The notes under the pieces: generated by a model | The model's input: the letters and a program-made list of their open reading frames with translations, nothing else | Told to the model about the DNA's origin: nothing | Databases searched by the model: none | Position numbers and translations under genes: made by a program | DNA from: Dietzia timorensis | GTDB taxonomy: Bacteria; Actinomycetota; Actinomycetes; Mycobacteriales; Mycobacteriaceae | Direction: 5' to 3' | NCBI RefSeq assembly: GCF_001659785.1 | Contig: NZ_CP015961.1 | Coordinates: 1,922,001 to 1,986,000 of the forward strand | Length of the DNA stretch: 64,000 nt | In this document: positions 29,070 to 37,277 of the stretch, piece after piece | Position numbering within the stretch: position 1 is the stretch's first letter | Layout of the letters: every line of letters begins with the position of its first letter

Positions 29070-29816
29070 TCAGTCCGGCGGAAGAAACGGACTCGCGGCA
29101 ATGGCCGAGGCAATCGTTTGAGCGGCGCCCTCACGCTTGTCGTAGGTGAACCGCGCCTCCGGGCCTGACACCGATATCGCGATCGCAGAACGCCCAGAAC
29201 CGTGGGATACCGCCACGCATCGCACGCCTTCTTCCTGTTCGGATTCATCGCCGGCGAAACCATTCTTTCGCGCGGTATCGAGTTCGGTGATAAATTCGTC
29301 AGGAGAGGTAATCGTCGAAGAGGTGTACCGGCGCATCCCTGTCCGCGCCAATAGTTTACGCACCTCGGAATCTTCCCGATTAGCCAACAGTGCTTTACCA
29401 ACTGCGGTGCAGTGGAGATCGACCCGCCTGCCTACTTCGGTGAACATCCGCATCGAATACGGGCTCGGCACCTGAGCAAGATAGACGATCTTGTCGCCTT
29501 CTCGCGCGGCGAGGTTGGCAGTCTCCCCAGTCGCATCGACAACTTGCTGCAGGATGGGCACGGCCCAGCGCTTGGTTACCGATTGCGCTGCGCCACCGGC
29601 CCACATGAGAGTCGGGGCAAGGACATATTCGCGGCCAGGAGCTTGCCGTAGCAGACCGGTCTCTACAAGAGTCGAAGCCAATCTGTGGACGGTCGCCGCG
29701 GCTAGTCCGGTCTTTTCGGCGATGGTCTTGAGCGAGACTATCCCGCCCTCGGACACGACCGCTTCGATGATCGCCGCAGCGCGTGTAACCGACTGCACCG
29801 TTTCCCGAGTACTCAC
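29070..29816 (-). CDS. IclR-family transcriptional regulator
   Basis: The 248-residue protein has an N-terminal winged helix (about 25-57, [20 protein letters not shown]) and the IclR effector domain (about 75-245, with [12 protein letters not shown] and RCVAVSHG). Such proteins bind small acids, glyoxylate or pyruvate in the E. coli case. GTG 29816 overlaps the miaA-fusion stop (GTGA) and has GAGGAAA 6 nt upstream, so it is translated from the miaA transcript. It is convergent with malate synthase G, whose promoter region carries a palindrome of suitable type, making that gene the likely target by inference. Confidence 0.88.
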
Positions 29817-31513
29817 GAGCGTTTCCTCACTGTTCGAAGTGCCTGGTCCACAAGAGACCCAGTCGCATCCGCGTTTGCGTCCAACCATCGGATCCGCGCG
29901 TCCCGCCTGAACCATGAGCGCTGGCGCCGAACGTAGCGGCGTGTGCCGATGAATGTTTGATCGAGAGCGTCCTCGACGGCGCTCGCCGTTGGTTCGCTGT
30001 CCCCGAATTCGTCCAGGAGCTCGAGCACCTGCAAATATCCGATCGCTCGTTTCGCCGTGACTCCATCTCTGAGCCCCTTGGGAACGAGGTGTCGTACCTC
30101 ATCGATAAAGCCTTGCTCGAACATCCTTCTCGTGCGCTGCTCCAACCTCGAATCGAGCTCGCTGGTCTCCATGTCGAGAGCAAAAATGTGCGCGTCCCAA
30201 CGAGGTTTCCCGATGGTGGGCCGGGACGCGGCAAAGGGCTTCCCGGTCAGTTCGATGACCTCTAGAGCGCGAACCGTTCGGCGTGGATCGGTGTCGAGAA
30301 TTGTCTTGGCCGCTTCGGGGTCCTTCGCGGCCAGCTCCGCGTGTAGCGCCTGGACTCCGATCTCTTCGAGCCTGGATTCGTAACGCGCCCTGACCGACGG
30401 ATCGGTCTCTGGAAAATTCCATTCGTCGATGAGTGATTGGTAGTACATCATCGAGCCGCCGACGACTATGGGCGTCTGTCCGCTGGCTCTGATGCGTTCG
30501 ACGATGTCGCGGGCATCGCGCTGATAGTCGGCTACCGACGCGGTCTCGTTGACGTCGAGTACATCCAACATATGGTGCGGGATCCCTCGACGCTCGTATT
30601 GCGGCACTTTTGCCGTGCCGATATTCATACCTTTGTAGAGTTGCATCGCGTCGAGGTTCACGATCTGGCCGCCCAGTTCCTCGGCAAGGTTCAACGCTAG
30701 ATCTGACTTGCCGGTCCCCGTGGGTCCGACGATGACGATTGGCCGCGACAACTCTTCGTCGTGTGGCACGCCGTTTGATCCTGACGTATGGAGAAGAGGG
30801 TCTACCCTCTCGGAGGAGATCGCCCAGCGAGCGGTGTGATAGCCGACACCGAAAGGAGCGGCGTGCGACGCCGATATCGGCGGTTCTCCTGCCACGAAGT
30901 CGGAAAGGAGCGTCCACATCGGTTGCGAATACCAGCCGATCGACGTCGCTGCGTCTTGCTGCAATAACGGAAGTTCGTCTTCTCCTTGGACGAAAGCCGT
31001 CAGCTTCCTATCCAGCTCTACCGCTGATTCGTCGAGTGGGATCGGCGCCTTCGGGGCCAGAGCTGCGGGCCCATCGGCCATGAGCATCACCACGCCGTCA
31101 TGTGCATGGATCGTGCGCAGTACCGATGGGACCGAGCCCGTGAGTTCATTCGCCGTGGCGCTGACCGTCATAGTCTTCACATCCACGTCGAGGCCCGCTC
31201 GCGCAATCCACCACCAGGCCATAAGGACAGCACCGGGGATCCCAGAAGGATCGTTCAACTCTCGTTCGGAGCGTGATGAGCCCACAGCGACCGAAGGCGC
31301 GCCCCAACGACGAAGATCATGCGCACTGTAGGCGAGCTCGGTTGTTTGGGGGCCCTGGGCGACGACGAGGATCCTGCGATCGGCGGTGGCGACGGCGTCT
31401 TGAAGCATGCCCACACCGGCGTCAACAAGCGTAGAGACGTCCGTCCATGCCGCTCCCGACAGTTCGGGTACGAGTACCGGCGCGCCCGGTAGGAGGACGA
31501 GTTGTGATGCCAC
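29813..31513 (-). CDS. miaA: Fusion: LigB-like (class III extradiol dioxygenase-type) domain plus tRNA dimethylallyltransferase MiaA
   Basis: One uninterrupted 566-codon frame joins two proteins that are adjacent separate genes in M. tuberculosis (Rv2728c, Rv2727c, from memory). Residues 1-235 match the Rv2728c type ([15 protein letters not shown] start, later [12 protein letters not shown]). Residues 236-256 are a linker. Residues 257-566 are a complete MiaA with P-loop GPTGTGKS (263-270), [23 protein letters not shown] and a C-terminal [13 protein letters not shown]. MiaA adds dimethylallyl to A37 of tRNAs reading UNN codons; MiaB, also in the window, then methylthiolates it. TAATCT 6 nt before GTG 31513 supports the full-length start. 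GTG 30769 behind AGGA might also start a MiaA-only product. Confidence 0.85.
30795..30810. repeat. Inverted repeat in the linker of the MiaA fusion gene
   Basis: AGAGGGTCTACCCTCT has 7-bp arms around two central bases. It falls in codons about 235-240 of the fusion, just upstream of the internal GTG 30769 with an AGGA site. As an RNA hairpin it could affect internal initiation, but this is speculative. Confidence 0.4.
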
Positions 31514-31519
31514 CCGTCC

Positions 31520-31525
31520 AGATTA
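31520..31525 (-). promoter_or_regulatory. Putative leaderless -10 box of the miaA fusion gene
   Basis: On the minus strand TAATCT is followed by 6 nt and GTG 31513. Confidence 0.45.
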
Positions 31526-31766: not shown

Positions 31767-33143
31767 ATGTCTGACGTCGACAAGATTTCGGAGGCTTCAA
31801 AGGTTAGAGCCAATTCACGGCCGAAGCCGGCGGCTCCGAAGCCTGGTGTCCCTTCTCCTGCAGCCGTAGCGTCGAAGAGTTCGGCGGGGCACGTTCATCC
31901 GCACGCTGCACCTACGGCCCCCAAGAGTGACCCGAAGAAGTGGGGACACGTCGATGACGACGGCGCGGTCTGGGTGCGCACGAGCGCCGGCGATCGCCAG
32001 GTCGGCTCCTGGCAGGCCGGAAATGCCGACGAGGCACTCGACCATTTCGGGCGGCGATTCGACGATCTCGCCACCGAGGTGGTGCTACTCGAGCAGCGCC
32101 TCGAGACGCACCCGTCCGACGCGCGCAAGACGCGCTCTGCCGCTAAGGCTCTCGTGGAAACCGTCCCCGAGGCCAAGGTAGTCGGAGACCTCGAGGGGCT
32201 GGAAACTCGCCTTCATGCGATCATCGAATTCTCGTCCCAGGTCGAGGAACAGGTCCGCAAGGACAAGGCTGCTCACCGCGAAACTGCGATCGCTCGCAAG
32301 GAAGAGCTTGCCTCGGAGGCCGAGCAAATCGGTGAGTCCTCTACGCAGTGGAAGGTCGCGGGCGACCGGCTCAAGGTGATTCTCGACGAATGGAAGACGA
32401 TTCGCGGTATCGACCGCAAGACCGACGACGAGCTGTGGAAACGGTTCTCCAAAGCTCGCGAGGCATTCAACCGTCGACGCGGCTCCCACTTTGCCGAACT
32501 CGATAGGAATCGGGCCACGGCTCGCAACACCAAGGAAGAGCTTGTTGTGCGAGCGGAAAAGATGGCCAACAACACCGATTGGAACGACACCGCACGTGCT
32601 TTCCGGCAGCTTATGGACGAGTGGAAGGCCGCGGGTCGGGCTCCGCGGGAGGCCGATAATCAACTGTGGGGCCGTTTCAAGAAGGCTCAGGACACGTTCT
32701 TCGATGCGCGACATGCGGCCGCGGCGGAACGCGATGCCGAATTCGAGTCGAACGCGAAGGCCAAGGAGGCTCTGCTGGCGGAATACGACTCCAAGATCGA
32801 CCCCGCACAGGGGCTAGATTCCGCCAAGCGCGCCCTTCGTGAGCTTCAGGAACGGTGGGAGGCCGCGGGAAAGGTCCCACGTAGTCGAATATCCGAATTC
32901 GAGGGTCGGATTCGCGAGCTCGAAAAGCGCGTCGACGCCGAGGAACAGTCGCAGTGGCGACGAAATGATCCGGAGGTCAAGGCGCGTGCAGGGCAGTTCT
33001 GGGACCGAGTAACCGCGTTCGAGGATCAGGCGGCCAAAGCTGAGGCCGCCGGCAAGAGGAAAGACGCGGATAAGTTCCGCGCACAGGCCGAGCAATGGCG
33101 CGAGTGGGCGCAGGCTGCGGAAACCGCGGTCGAAGACCGCTAG
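31767..33143 (+). CDS. DUF349-repeat coiled-coil protein
   Basis: The 458-residue protein has a Pro/Ala-rich N-terminal tail (1-55), then three DUF349 repeats recognisable by WK.(A/V).G or W.AAGK.PR signatures near residues 195-215, 275-295 and 360-375. Most of the remainder is predicted helical and highly charged, with many Glu/Lys/Arg. It is cytosolic; there is no signal or membrane segment. It corresponds to Rv2731 by position. The function is unknown; DUF349 proteins have been linked to RNA binding in some species. AAGGAG lies 6 nt before ATG 31767. It is divergent from the miaA fusion and followed by a strong hairpin. Confidence 0.82.
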   Translation: MSDVDKISEASKVRANSRPKPAAPKPGVPSPAAVASKSSAGHVHPHAAPTAPKSDPKKWGHVDDDGAVWVRTSAGDRQVGSWQAGNADEALDHFGRRFDDLATEVVLLEQRLETHPSDARKTRSAAKALVETVPEAKVVGDLEGLETRLHAIIEFSSQVEEQVRKDKAAHRETAIARKEELASEAEQIGESSTQWKVAGDRLKVILDEWKTIRGIDRKTDDELWKRFSKAREAFNRRRGSHFAELDRNRATARNTKEELVVRAEKMANNTDWNDTARAFRQLMDEWKAAGRAPREADNQLWGRFKKAQDTFFDARHAAAAERDAEFESNAKAKEALLAEYDSKIDPAQGLDSAKRALRELQERWEAAGKVPRSRISEFEGRIRELEKRVDAEEQSQWRRNDPEVKARAGQFWDRVTAFEDQAAKAEAAGKRKDADKFRAQAEQWREWAQAAETAVEDR

Positions 33144-33961: not shown

Positions 33962-35527
33962 TTACTCCGCGCCGGATCGGATGGTGGGCAGACCGAGTCC
34001 GACTCCAACCGGCTCGGTCGTGGGCACTACCCCGGCTTCATAATGATTACCCGCCTTGGTACGGCGATGCGAGAGGACCCCGGAGTCCGCGAGAAGATGG
34101 TGCGGTGCCGCTGCGGTCACGTCGACCTCGATGATGTCACCAGGACGCAGCGAACGATCGATTGCGCCCGCGGTGGCCGGTTTGGGATCGAAATGGACCA
34201 ATCGCCCATCACGAGCCCGGCCGCTCATGCGCGACGTGGACGAGTTCTTCCGACCGGAGTCATCAACGATGAGCAGCTCAACGCAGCGGCCGACGATCTT
34301 TCGGTTCTCTTCGAGGGTGATGCGCTCCTGAAGCTCCAGAAGCCGGTCGTAACGGTCCTGCACGACGGCCTTGGGAACCTGGTCCTCCATCTCAGCCGCC
34401 GGAGTGCCCGGACGAGGCGAGTACTGGAACGTAAACGCACTGGTGAAACGGCTCTTCTCGACTACCTCGAGGGTTTGTTGGAAGTCTTCCTCGGTCTCCC
34501 CCGGGAAACCGACGATGATGTCGGTGGTGATGGCAGCGTCCGGGATCGACGCGCGTACCTTCTCGATGATGCCCAGGAACTTCTTCTGTCGATATGAACG
34601 ACGCATCGAACGCAGAACTCTGTCCGATCCGGATTGAAGGGGCATGTGAAGCTGCGGGCACACGTTCGGCGTCTCCGCCATCGCCGCAATGACGTCATCG
34701 GTGAATTCTGCCGGGTGCGGCGACGTGAAGCGGACTCGTTCGAGTCCTTCGATCTGCCCACACGCACGGAGGAGTTCTCCGAAAGCACCTTTATCTGCCG
34801 GCTCGTCTGGGTGGATAAACGACCGACCGTATGCGTTGACGTTCTGCCCAAGGAGCGTGACTTCCAGAACGCCTTCGGCCACCAGCGCCTCCACCTCGGC
34901 CAGAACCTCGCCGGGCCGGCGGTCGACTTCCTTGCCACGGAGAGACGGGACGATACAGAAGGTGCAGGTGTTGTTGCACCCGACTGACACCGAAACCCAT
35001 CCGGCATAGGACGAATCGCGCTTCGCCGGAAGGTTCGAGGGAAAATGCTGCAGCGAATCGGCGATCTCGACTGCTGCTTCGTCGTTGTGCCGGGAGCGAT
35101 CGAGAAGCGACGGCAAATGGCCCAGATTGTGGGTACCGAAGACGACGTCTACCCACGGCGCCCGATCGACGACAACGTCCTTATCCTTCTGCGCCAGGCA
35201 ACCGCCTACGGCGATTTGCAGTCGAGGGTTGACGTCCTTCCACGGACGCATGTTGCCCAGCGTTCCATAGAGGCGGTTGTCGGCGTTTTCGCGCACCGCG
35301 CACGTGTTGAAGACGACGAGATCCGGCAACACACCAGCGTCCTCATCCGCTTCGCCTTCGAAAGGAACGTACCCGGCCTCGTCCAAGACGCCCGACAGCC
35401 GCTCGGAATCGTGAACGTTCATCTGGCAGCCGAACGTACGGATCTGATAGCGAAGCGGTTCCACACCTGACTCCGCGGCGTTCCCCTCTGCCTCGCGGGT
35501 GCGTCTATCGAAAAGAACCTCGCTCAC
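33962..35527 (-). CDS. miaB: tRNA-2-methylthio-N6-dimethylallyladenosine synthase MiaB
   Basis: The enzyme is a radical-SAM methylthiotransferase of about 521 residues. Three N-terminal cysteines for one iron-sulfur cluster lie in [20 protein letters not shown] and VGGCLAQ; the radical-SAM CxxxCxxC is in [20 protein letters not shown] domain ends the catalytic part, followed by a 50-residue tail. It converts i6A37 (made by MiaA) to ms2i6A37 in tRNAs. The start is uncertain: AGGAG lies 11 nt before GTG 35527, while GTG 35539, 12 nt further up, overlaps that site. It is the third gene of recA-recX-miaB. Confidence 0.95.
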
Positions 35528-35590
35528 CTGCGCCGACACTCCTGTCTATCGTGGTCGTATACCCAGATAAGATTACGCGCGAACCGAGAC

Positions 35591-36184
35591 CTAGAGAAAT
35601 TGGCGGGCGTTGGCTATCTCGTTGTTGACCACGGACAGGGCTACTCCGGATGAATAGCCCCGGCGCTGTAAGTAAGCCACCAATCGACGCTTGACCTTCG
35701 TGCGCTGCTCCATGGTCGACAAGTCGGAATTCTCGCGTCGTTGGATTCGCTGCGCGACGAGTTCGTGCGCACGCGCCCGCTCGTCCTCCTCCGTAACCGC
35801 TTCCAGAGCTTGGCCGATCTGTGCAGATTCGACGCCTTTTTCTTCAAGCTCCCGGCGAAGCAGCGTCCGAGTCGTACCTTTGCTGACCGAACGCTGCTCC
35901 ACCCACTGGCGCGCGAAATCTGCATCATCAAGGAGTTGCCACGCGTCGATTCTTTCCATCGCCTCCGCAACGGCGGACTCGGAAAACTCCTTCTCGGTGA
36001 GTCTTCCGTACAGTTCATGCCTGCTTCTCGCGCGGAACTTCAGTAGACGCAGCGCAGCCTTGGTGGCCTTACTTCCTTCTTCCGAAAGTGGAGGCAGTTC
36101 CGGAAGCGGCGCAGGGGACTCGATCGCCGCTATCGCGGCCTGCAGCTCCTCGAGGGAGCTAGGAACCGGAGATGACTCAGTCAT
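35591..36184 (-). CDS. recX: RecA regulator RecX
   Basis: The 197-residue helical protein has the RecX triple three-helix repeats with LRLLKFRARSRHELYGRL near residue 46, a central block at about 100-130 (TLLRRELEEKGVE) and RRLVAYLQRRGYS near 165-177. An acidic/Pro-rich N-terminal tail of about 40 residues is extra. RecX binds RecA filaments and limits their activity. It starts 4 bp after the recA stop, as usual in actinobacteria, so expression follows recA. Confidence 0.92.
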   Translation of the reverse strand: MTESSPVPSSLEELQAAIAAIESPAPLPELPPLSEEGSKATKAALRLLKFRARSRHELYGRLTEKEFSESAVAEAMERIDAWQLLDDADFARQWVEQRSVSKGTTRTLLRRELEEKGVESAQIGQALEAVTEEDERARAHELVAQRIQRRENSDLSTMEQRTKVKRRLVAYLQRRGYSSGVALSVVNNEIANARQFL

Positions 36185-36188
36185 CTAC

Positions 36189-37277
36189 CTAGAAGTCCAC
36201 CGGGACCACGTCGACCGGAGCATCTTCGTCTTCGACCGCCGGGACCTGGGACTCCTCCCCCGGTTCCTCACCGAAACCGAGTTTGGCCAGAATCTTCTCC
36301 TGGACCTCGTCGCGTACGGACGGATTGTCCTTGAGGTAGCGGCGGACGTTTTCCTTGCCCTGGCCGAGCTGGTCACCGTCGTAGGTGAACCAGGAACCGG
36401 ACTTCTTCACGATTCCGTGCTCAACGCCCATGTCAATGAGCGAGCCCTCTCGGCTAATCCCCTGGCCATAGAGAATGTCGAACTCGGCCTGCTTGAAGGG
36501 CGGCGCGACCTTGTTCTTGACCACTTTGACTCGCGTCCGGTTTCCGACCGCGTCGGCACCGTCCTTGAGCGTTTCGATGCGACGAACATCGAGTCGAACG
36601 GAGGCGTAGAACTTCAGGGCCTTACCACCGGTCGTCGTCTCGGGGGACCCGAACATGACACCGATCTTCTCACGCAGCTGGTTAATAAAGATGGCTGTGG
36701 TTCCGGTCGAGTGAAGAGCGCCCGTCATCTTACGAAGTGCCTGGCTCATAAGGCGTGCCTGGAGACCCACGTGGCTATCGCCCATCTCGCCCTCGATCTC
36801 TGCTCGCGGGACGAGGGCGGCAACGGAGTCGATAACGATCATGTCAATGGAACCGGAGCGAACAAGCATGTCCGCGATCTCCAAAGCCTGCTCACCGGTA
36901 TCAGGCTGGGAGACGATCAGGTTCTCCGTGTCGACACCCAACTTGCGGGCATATTCCGGATCGAGCGCGTGCTCGGCGTCGATAAAGGCTGCGATGCCGC
37001 CGCCGGCCTGCGCATTCGCAACCGCGTGCAGTGCGACAGTCGTCTTACCCGAGGATTCGGGGCCGTAGATTTCCACGACGCGGCCGCGAGGCAGCCCGCC
37101 GACACCGAGAGCCACATCCAGCGATAGTGCGCCGGTCGGAATCGCGTCTACCGGGGGACGATTGTCATCGCCCAGGCGCATGACCGAGCCCTTGCCGAAC
37201 GCCTTATCGATTTGTGCGAGCGCCATGTCCAAAGCCTGCTCGCGGCTTGCCGGCTTTGCTTGAGACTTTGCAGCCAT
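36189..37277 (-). CDS. recA: Recombinase RecA
   Basis: The 362-residue protein has Walker A GPESSGKT (72-79), the DNA-binding loop region with [21 protein letters not shown], and an acidic C-terminal tail ([14 protein letters not shown]). It is full length with no intein, unlike the M. tuberculosis gene. RecA drives homologous recombination and LexA self-cleavage. LexA-box-like sites lie about 115-150 bp upstream, in a 188-bp gap before the DUF3046 gene. It leads the recA-recX-miaB operon. Confidence 0.98.

Follow-up and report, generated by a model that had tools for sequence, protein, structure and literature searches.

MiaA, the tRNA dimethylallyltransferase (TIGR00174; Pfam: PF01715), works alone in E. 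coli. Proteins of what we take to be the Rv2728c type are found in the Mycobacteriales in the place before miaA, encoded by a separate gene which mostly overlaps it. Related to these are the LigB-AMMECR1 proteins, whose LigB domain (Pfam: PF02900) belongs to the PCAD-Memo superfamily. In a 2019 JBC paper, Burroughs et al. reportedly used genome context to predict a role of the Memo clade in nucleotide-base and isoprenoid modification, and this is the same kind of link as the one considered here. PMC7694686 describes the PCAD-Memo superfamily and cites Burroughs et al. 2019. Our literature search found no paper joining MiaA with an extradiol dioxygenase, AMMECR1 or Memo domain, none joining an extradiol dioxygenase with a dimethylallyltransferase, and none joining AMMECR1 with a Memo domain. 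In the literature passages searched, Rv2728c appeared only in a gene table, and nothing came up on the assembly of Dietzia timorensis. No printed description of a fusion of an Rv2728c-type domain to MiaA was found in the literature searched.

Such a fusion is present in Dietzia timorensis. The window is the whole stretch of 64,000 nucleotides (64 kb) that was analysed, taken from a genome of 3,607,892 bases in a single contig with a completeness of 99.99%. On its minus strand, positions 29813-31513 form a single uninterrupted frame of 566 codons from GTG 31513 to a TGA. The features of the locus are:

29813..31513, minus strand: fused open reading frame of 566 aa with GTG start and TGA stop, read directly as an open frame
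30821..31513, minus strand: N-terminal Rv2728c-type domain (N-domain), residues 1 to about 231, LigB-like with a probably lost metal site, based on homologues, alignment, hhalign and metal-site columns
30746..30820, minus strand: linker of 25 residues, about residues 232-256, with neither the stop and start (NTGA) shared in the congeners nor an in-frame stop
29867..30745, minus strand: MiaA (tRNA dimethylallyltransferase) domain, about residues 257-549, based on Pfam, TIGR00174 and motifs
31520..31525, minus strand: TAATCT, a -10-like element 6 nt before GTG 31513, of a putative leaderless-type start
30767..30769, minus strand: GTG codon 249, candidate internal MiaA start with AGGA (30779-30782) 9 nt upstream, from sequence only
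30749..30751, minus strand: TTG codon 255, second candidate internal MiaA start, likewise read from the letters alone

By its profile matches, the C-terminal part of the fused protein is a complete MiaA. Pfam IPPT (PF01715) matches residues 291-538 with an E-value of 6.1e-78, and TIGR00174 matches residues 259-548 with an E-value of 1.4e-73 and 247.6 bits (cut-off 148.65), covering positions 2-287 of the 288 in the model. The P-loop GPTxxGKS, DAMQLY (D-A/S-MQ-L/V-Y) and RRQRSWF motifs, which we take to have their usual roles in MiaA, were read in the alignment, and among solved structures the nearest in sequence are bacterial MiaA enzymes, whose matches begin at about residue 255. The entire C-terminal domain with its motifs is thus alike in the Dietzia fusion and in known MiaA, and what the Dietzia protein has in addition is the 231-residue N-terminal domain and the linker. 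The first-pass annotation had described a 566-codon frame joining an N-terminal domain to full-length MiaA, which is borne out by the open frame, TIGR00174 and Pfam; the linker is indeed open but measures about 25 residues rather than the 20 given there.

Residues 1 to about 231 gave no match to a family of their own in Pfam or NCBIfam. Homologues of this N-domain (E <= 0.001) are found in 204 of 301 genomes of the family, the own genome counted. We aligned 35 Rv2728c-type members, including the fused protein (alignment A1), and 16 LigB-type domains of more distant Actinomycetota (alignment A2). The N-domain of the fused protein shares 25-39% identity with the 34 other members of A1 and retains the invariant residues of the Rv2728c-type family, among which there is no histidine. 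Comparison of A1 with A2 by hhalign gave a full-length profile match with a probability of 99.5% and an E-value of 1.6e-22 over 232 columns. All eight A2-type proteins tested match PF02900 (E 7.6e-36 to 6.8e-43), the four longer ones matching AMMECR1 too. The Rv2728c-type members lie below Pfam detection, with PF02900 found on only one of the 35, at an E-value of 0.27, and the best related match of the family profile in the PDB, TK2203, was not significant (E 1). The P-x-GVGY motif near the C-terminus of LigB is largely retained, with A2 positions P254, G256, V257 and Y259 kept in all 35 members. The N-domain is LigB-like through remote homology alone, being distantly related to the LigB domains found with AMMECR1. 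In a regression of N-domain identity on MiaA identity the result was mixed: the own N-domain is closer than predicted to its congeners (16/16 residuals positive), and further than predicted from 21 non-Dietzia members of the family (17/21 residuals negative).

The N-domain differs from the LigB-AMMECR1 proteins in having neither the metal site nor an AMMECR1 domain. We take the metal-holding and metal-serving roles of the A2 positions over from LigB and Memo. In every one of the 35 members the equivalents of H7, H152, D177, H180, E226 and E252 (A2 numbering) have been substituted or lie in gaps. That of H51 is lost in 33; the other two have a His there, where the alignment is gappy. D121/H122 fall in a gap. 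The fused protein keeps none of the alignable metal-site positions, and its N-domain lacks the ligands (His, His, Glu type) and the catalytic His of class III extradiol dioxygenases. With six of the seven alignable positions lost throughout and the seventh in 33 of 35, metal chemistry by the N-domain seems unlikely. A LigB/extradiol-dioxygenase-type domain had been proposed at first; the distant homology to LigB held and the extradiol metal ligands did not, and the metal, redox or further i6A modification chemistry suggested with it is disfavoured by the loss of the site across the 35 members. The N-domain would instead be a non-catalytic partner of MiaA.

In a motif screen of 69 loci, each of the 16 with AMMECR1 retains the three His motifs together, as does none of the 53 without AMMECR1 in the stretch; 14 of the 53 retain the first His motif only. 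Since the 16 loci are those of A2 and the 69 share ancestry, they do not count as independent cases, and the screen contrasts clades. The AMMECR1 motif lies in the same ORF in 10 of these 16 loci and in another ORF of the stretch in 6. The contrast suggests that the metal site was lost along with AMMECR1. AMMECR1 (Pfam: PF01871) gave no match in the own genome; of 23 Dietzia genomes three carry it, and these also retain the N-domain gene before miaA. In four deep actinobacterial loci (L102, L105, L106, L107) a LigB-AMMECR1 gene with an intact-looking metal site lies directly before miaA. In five others (L113-L116, L121) a LigB gene, again with an intact-looking site, lies 530-761 nt before miaA, and L113-L115 have a separate AMMECR1-like ORF in between.

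Both parts of the fused protein are present in 23 of 23 Dietzia genomes, and they are separate genes in all 22 congeners. The stop of the N-domain gene and the start of miaA share 4 nt (ATGA/GTGA) in each of the 20 congener junctions read, and the other two congeners have the two parts in open frames of different length. Among 29 further loci of the family, mostly chosen for long open frames, there are 21 with a 4-nt overlap, 6 with an 8-nt overlap, 2 with a gap and none fused. Another 80 named loci, from Dietzia, Rhodococcus, Nocardia, Gordonia, Corynebacterium, Mycobacterium, Streptomyces and others, with species that partly repeat the other sets, comprise 57 with a 4-nt overlap, 6 with an 8-nt overlap, 3 close, 5 more than 120 nt apart, 9 without miaA in the stretch examined and none fused. 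The first-pass annotation had given M. tuberculosis as an example of separate adjacent genes; in three other Mycobacterium loci the two genes are separate. One locus of the family has a stop between the N-domain gene and miaA, which otherwise share a frame; this is possibly a halfway state to a fusion. In a presumed Streptomyces family, a gap of 530-1262 nt lies between the Rv2728c-type match and miaA in 11 of 11 genomes.

The search for the same fusion in other actinobacterial genomes, proposed as a check in the first-pass annotation, was run and gave none beyond this Dietzia species among the loci read. In the family genomes, every listed match with at least 525 open codons closes before miaA. 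Among the long-frame matches listed and read from the phylum genomes, only the own locus is fused; three were left out, namely G332, whose N-part and miaA sit in open frames that differ in length, and G554 and G653, with miaA on another contig or more than 100 kb from the N-part. The 20 listed matches read from the class genomes include no fusion; two are without miaA in the stretch. A further listed match, G948, already ends in a stop itself. So far the fusion is found in this Dietzia species only. At the fused junction no TGA is seen, and both the stop and the start of the congeners are absent. A 25-codon open linker is unremarkable alone, and what stands out is the loss of both. The overlapping frames differ by one base, so a fusion would have required loss of the stop and a net change of frame.

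The fused gene appears to have a leaderless-type start. All 17 distinct Dietzia upstream sequences, the own one included (19 loci given, minus one too short and one duplicate), have TANNNT 6-8 nt before the N-domain gene, against 4.7% of shuffles when a spacing of 5-9 nt is allowed. On these counts a leaderless-type start at GTG 31513 is well supported, with the reserve that the 17 sequences are related and thus not independent. The TAATCT first pointed out 6 nt upstream of this GTG is present, and the fused start for which it was cited is supported.

The surroundings of miaA provide evidence on both sides of a partnership with the N-domain. An N-domain-type match is found in 126 of 396 phylum genomes, of which 111 are outside the family, all 111 with MiaA. 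The match of one of these 111 was not listed; among the other 110, a LigB-like gene precedes miaA in the same orientation and at no more than 2 kb in 85, spread over 27 families. In the remaining 25 it is on another contig (17, some of them perhaps assembly breaks), far off (7) or on the other strand (1). In a search that scored at most seven candidates per genome, 270 of 396 phylum genomes and 132 of 394 class genomes gave no N-domain match; the domain is therefore not universal. As a control we used dapF, for which we know of no tRNA role. It was sought in 80 of the 111 genomes and found in 74 (6 without a match; 9 second copies dropped), and in 71 of these 74 it lies within 2 kb downstream of miaA. 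A hand count over these same 74 genomes gives 64 with the LigB-like gene at most 2 kb upstream of miaA. Adjacency is therefore weak evidence for partnership, and a conserved housekeeping cluster may stand behind it. Gene order as proof of function is weakened by this control.

The overlap of the two genes is not special either, because miaA overlaps the next gene in the same way. At 29813-29816 on the minus strand, GTGA holds both the end of miaA and the probable first codon of a gene for an IclR-type regulator of 248 aa, which the automatic ORF list starts earlier, at 29915. A 4-nt overlap of miaA with the next IclR-like gene is found in 8 of 8 loci, and Pfam confirmed IclR after miaA in the own genome and in one of these loci (L124). 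In the two Pfam-checked Dietzia genomes the LigB-like gene persists before miaA despite the IclR gene behind it. On the strand of the fused gene and upstream of it (33962-37277, minus) there are a miaB-type gene (UPF0004 and radical SAM), recX and recA, with a DUF349 gene on the plus strand (31767-33143) in between. The claim that the N-domain acts with MiaA is plausible from the overlap in relatives, the gene order in 27 families and the fusion, and is held back by the weakness of adjacency and by there being one fusion lineage. Overall we see moderate support for a partnership.

Two readings would take the fused chain itself, or its exclusive presence, out of the account. One is an error of sequencing or assembly, in which a single base gained or lost in the roughly 20 nt that follow Trp230 conceals a stop and the genes are really separate, with miaA starting at GTG 249. 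In its favour, the adjacent frame meets a TAG after 7 codons, and AGGA precedes GTG 249 by 9 nt; it is the less likely reading. Against it are the single-contig assembly of 99.99% completeness and the junction itself, which even then would be without the NTGA overlap, unlike the 20 congener junctions read; no TGA is left in the junction, and a single erroneous indel is thus not enough to mask an overlap of the usual kind. A codon score, for which five parts of genes in the 64-kb window served as training set with the linker excluded, gives modest support to the linker as coding, at +1.3 bits in frame versus -13.5 and -9.3 in the other forward frames, with one reverse frame near the in-frame value at +0.5. 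We judge such an error improbable. The other reading keeps the fused frame and adds a second product, free MiaA initiated at GTG 249 or TTG 255, with both forms coexisting. The AGGA ahead of GTG 249 and the start of the congeners' miaA near this site favour it, and codon 253, which is homologous to the congeners' start, is GAA in the fused gene, which tells against it. Coexisting forms are conceivable, if on the unlikely side; they are compatible with an accessory-subunit role of the N-domain, so the likelihoods of the two overlap.

The remaining alternatives concern what the N-domain does. An N-domain still active as an extradiol-type or metal enzyme, with i6A or the prenyl donor as its substrate, could appeal to the distant homology to LigB/AMMECR1 N-domains, to the His in the H51 column of two of the 35 members and to the first His kept in 14 of the 53 more distant loci without AMMECR1. 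Set against the six equivalents lost in all 35 members, H51 lost in 33, D121/H122 in a gap and no invariant His, it is very improbable. Alternatively, co-transcribed overlapping genes merged by chance, and an N-domain with an unrelated or slight function is tolerated on MiaA. The occurrence in one species, the equally regular overlap of miaA with its next gene (8/8) and dapF flanking miaA in 71 of 74 genomes compared with 64 for the LigB-like gene all suit such a neutral merger. It fits less well with a LigB-like gene conserved before miaA in 27 families and persisting in two Dietzia genomes despite the IclR gene after miaA, nor does it lead one to expect that the domain retains the invariant residues of its family, and we regard it as rather unlikely. 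We put it at somewhat better than even that the fusion is real and, jointly, that the N-domain, its metal site lost, is a non-catalytic accessory subunit of MiaA. As we infer the direction of change, the contact of the N-domain with MiaA and the role of the N-domain, the domain, a relative of the LigB-type domain found with AMMECR1 in more deeply branching actinobacterial lineages, would have lost its metal site. The 4-nt stop/start overlap of an Rv2728c-type gene with miaA would then have been lost and the frames joined, giving one chain here where relatives would make two products from overlapping genes. MiaA would carry out the prenyl transfer to A37 alone, with the N-domain as an accessory, e.g. 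in stability, tRNA binding or regulation. A Rosetta-stone reading is plausible, resting on one event that started from an already overlapping pair. A wider proposal, which we offer tentatively and consider unlikely, is that LigB-AMMECR1 acts in or on tRNA A37 prenylation, that the metal site and AMMECR1 were lost in Actinomycetes, that the remnant is a structural MiaA subunit and that the fusion is its covalent contact.

If the fusion is neutral, it is a mere curiosity of overlapping genes. If the N-domain is a MiaA subunit, this would account for an uncharacterised protein that is widespread in Mycobacteriales and Streptomyces. It would also give a handle on the role of the Memo-related LigB-AMMECR1 system beside miaA, which is enigmatic and widely conserved, since a single chain and relatives with and without the metal site could be compared.
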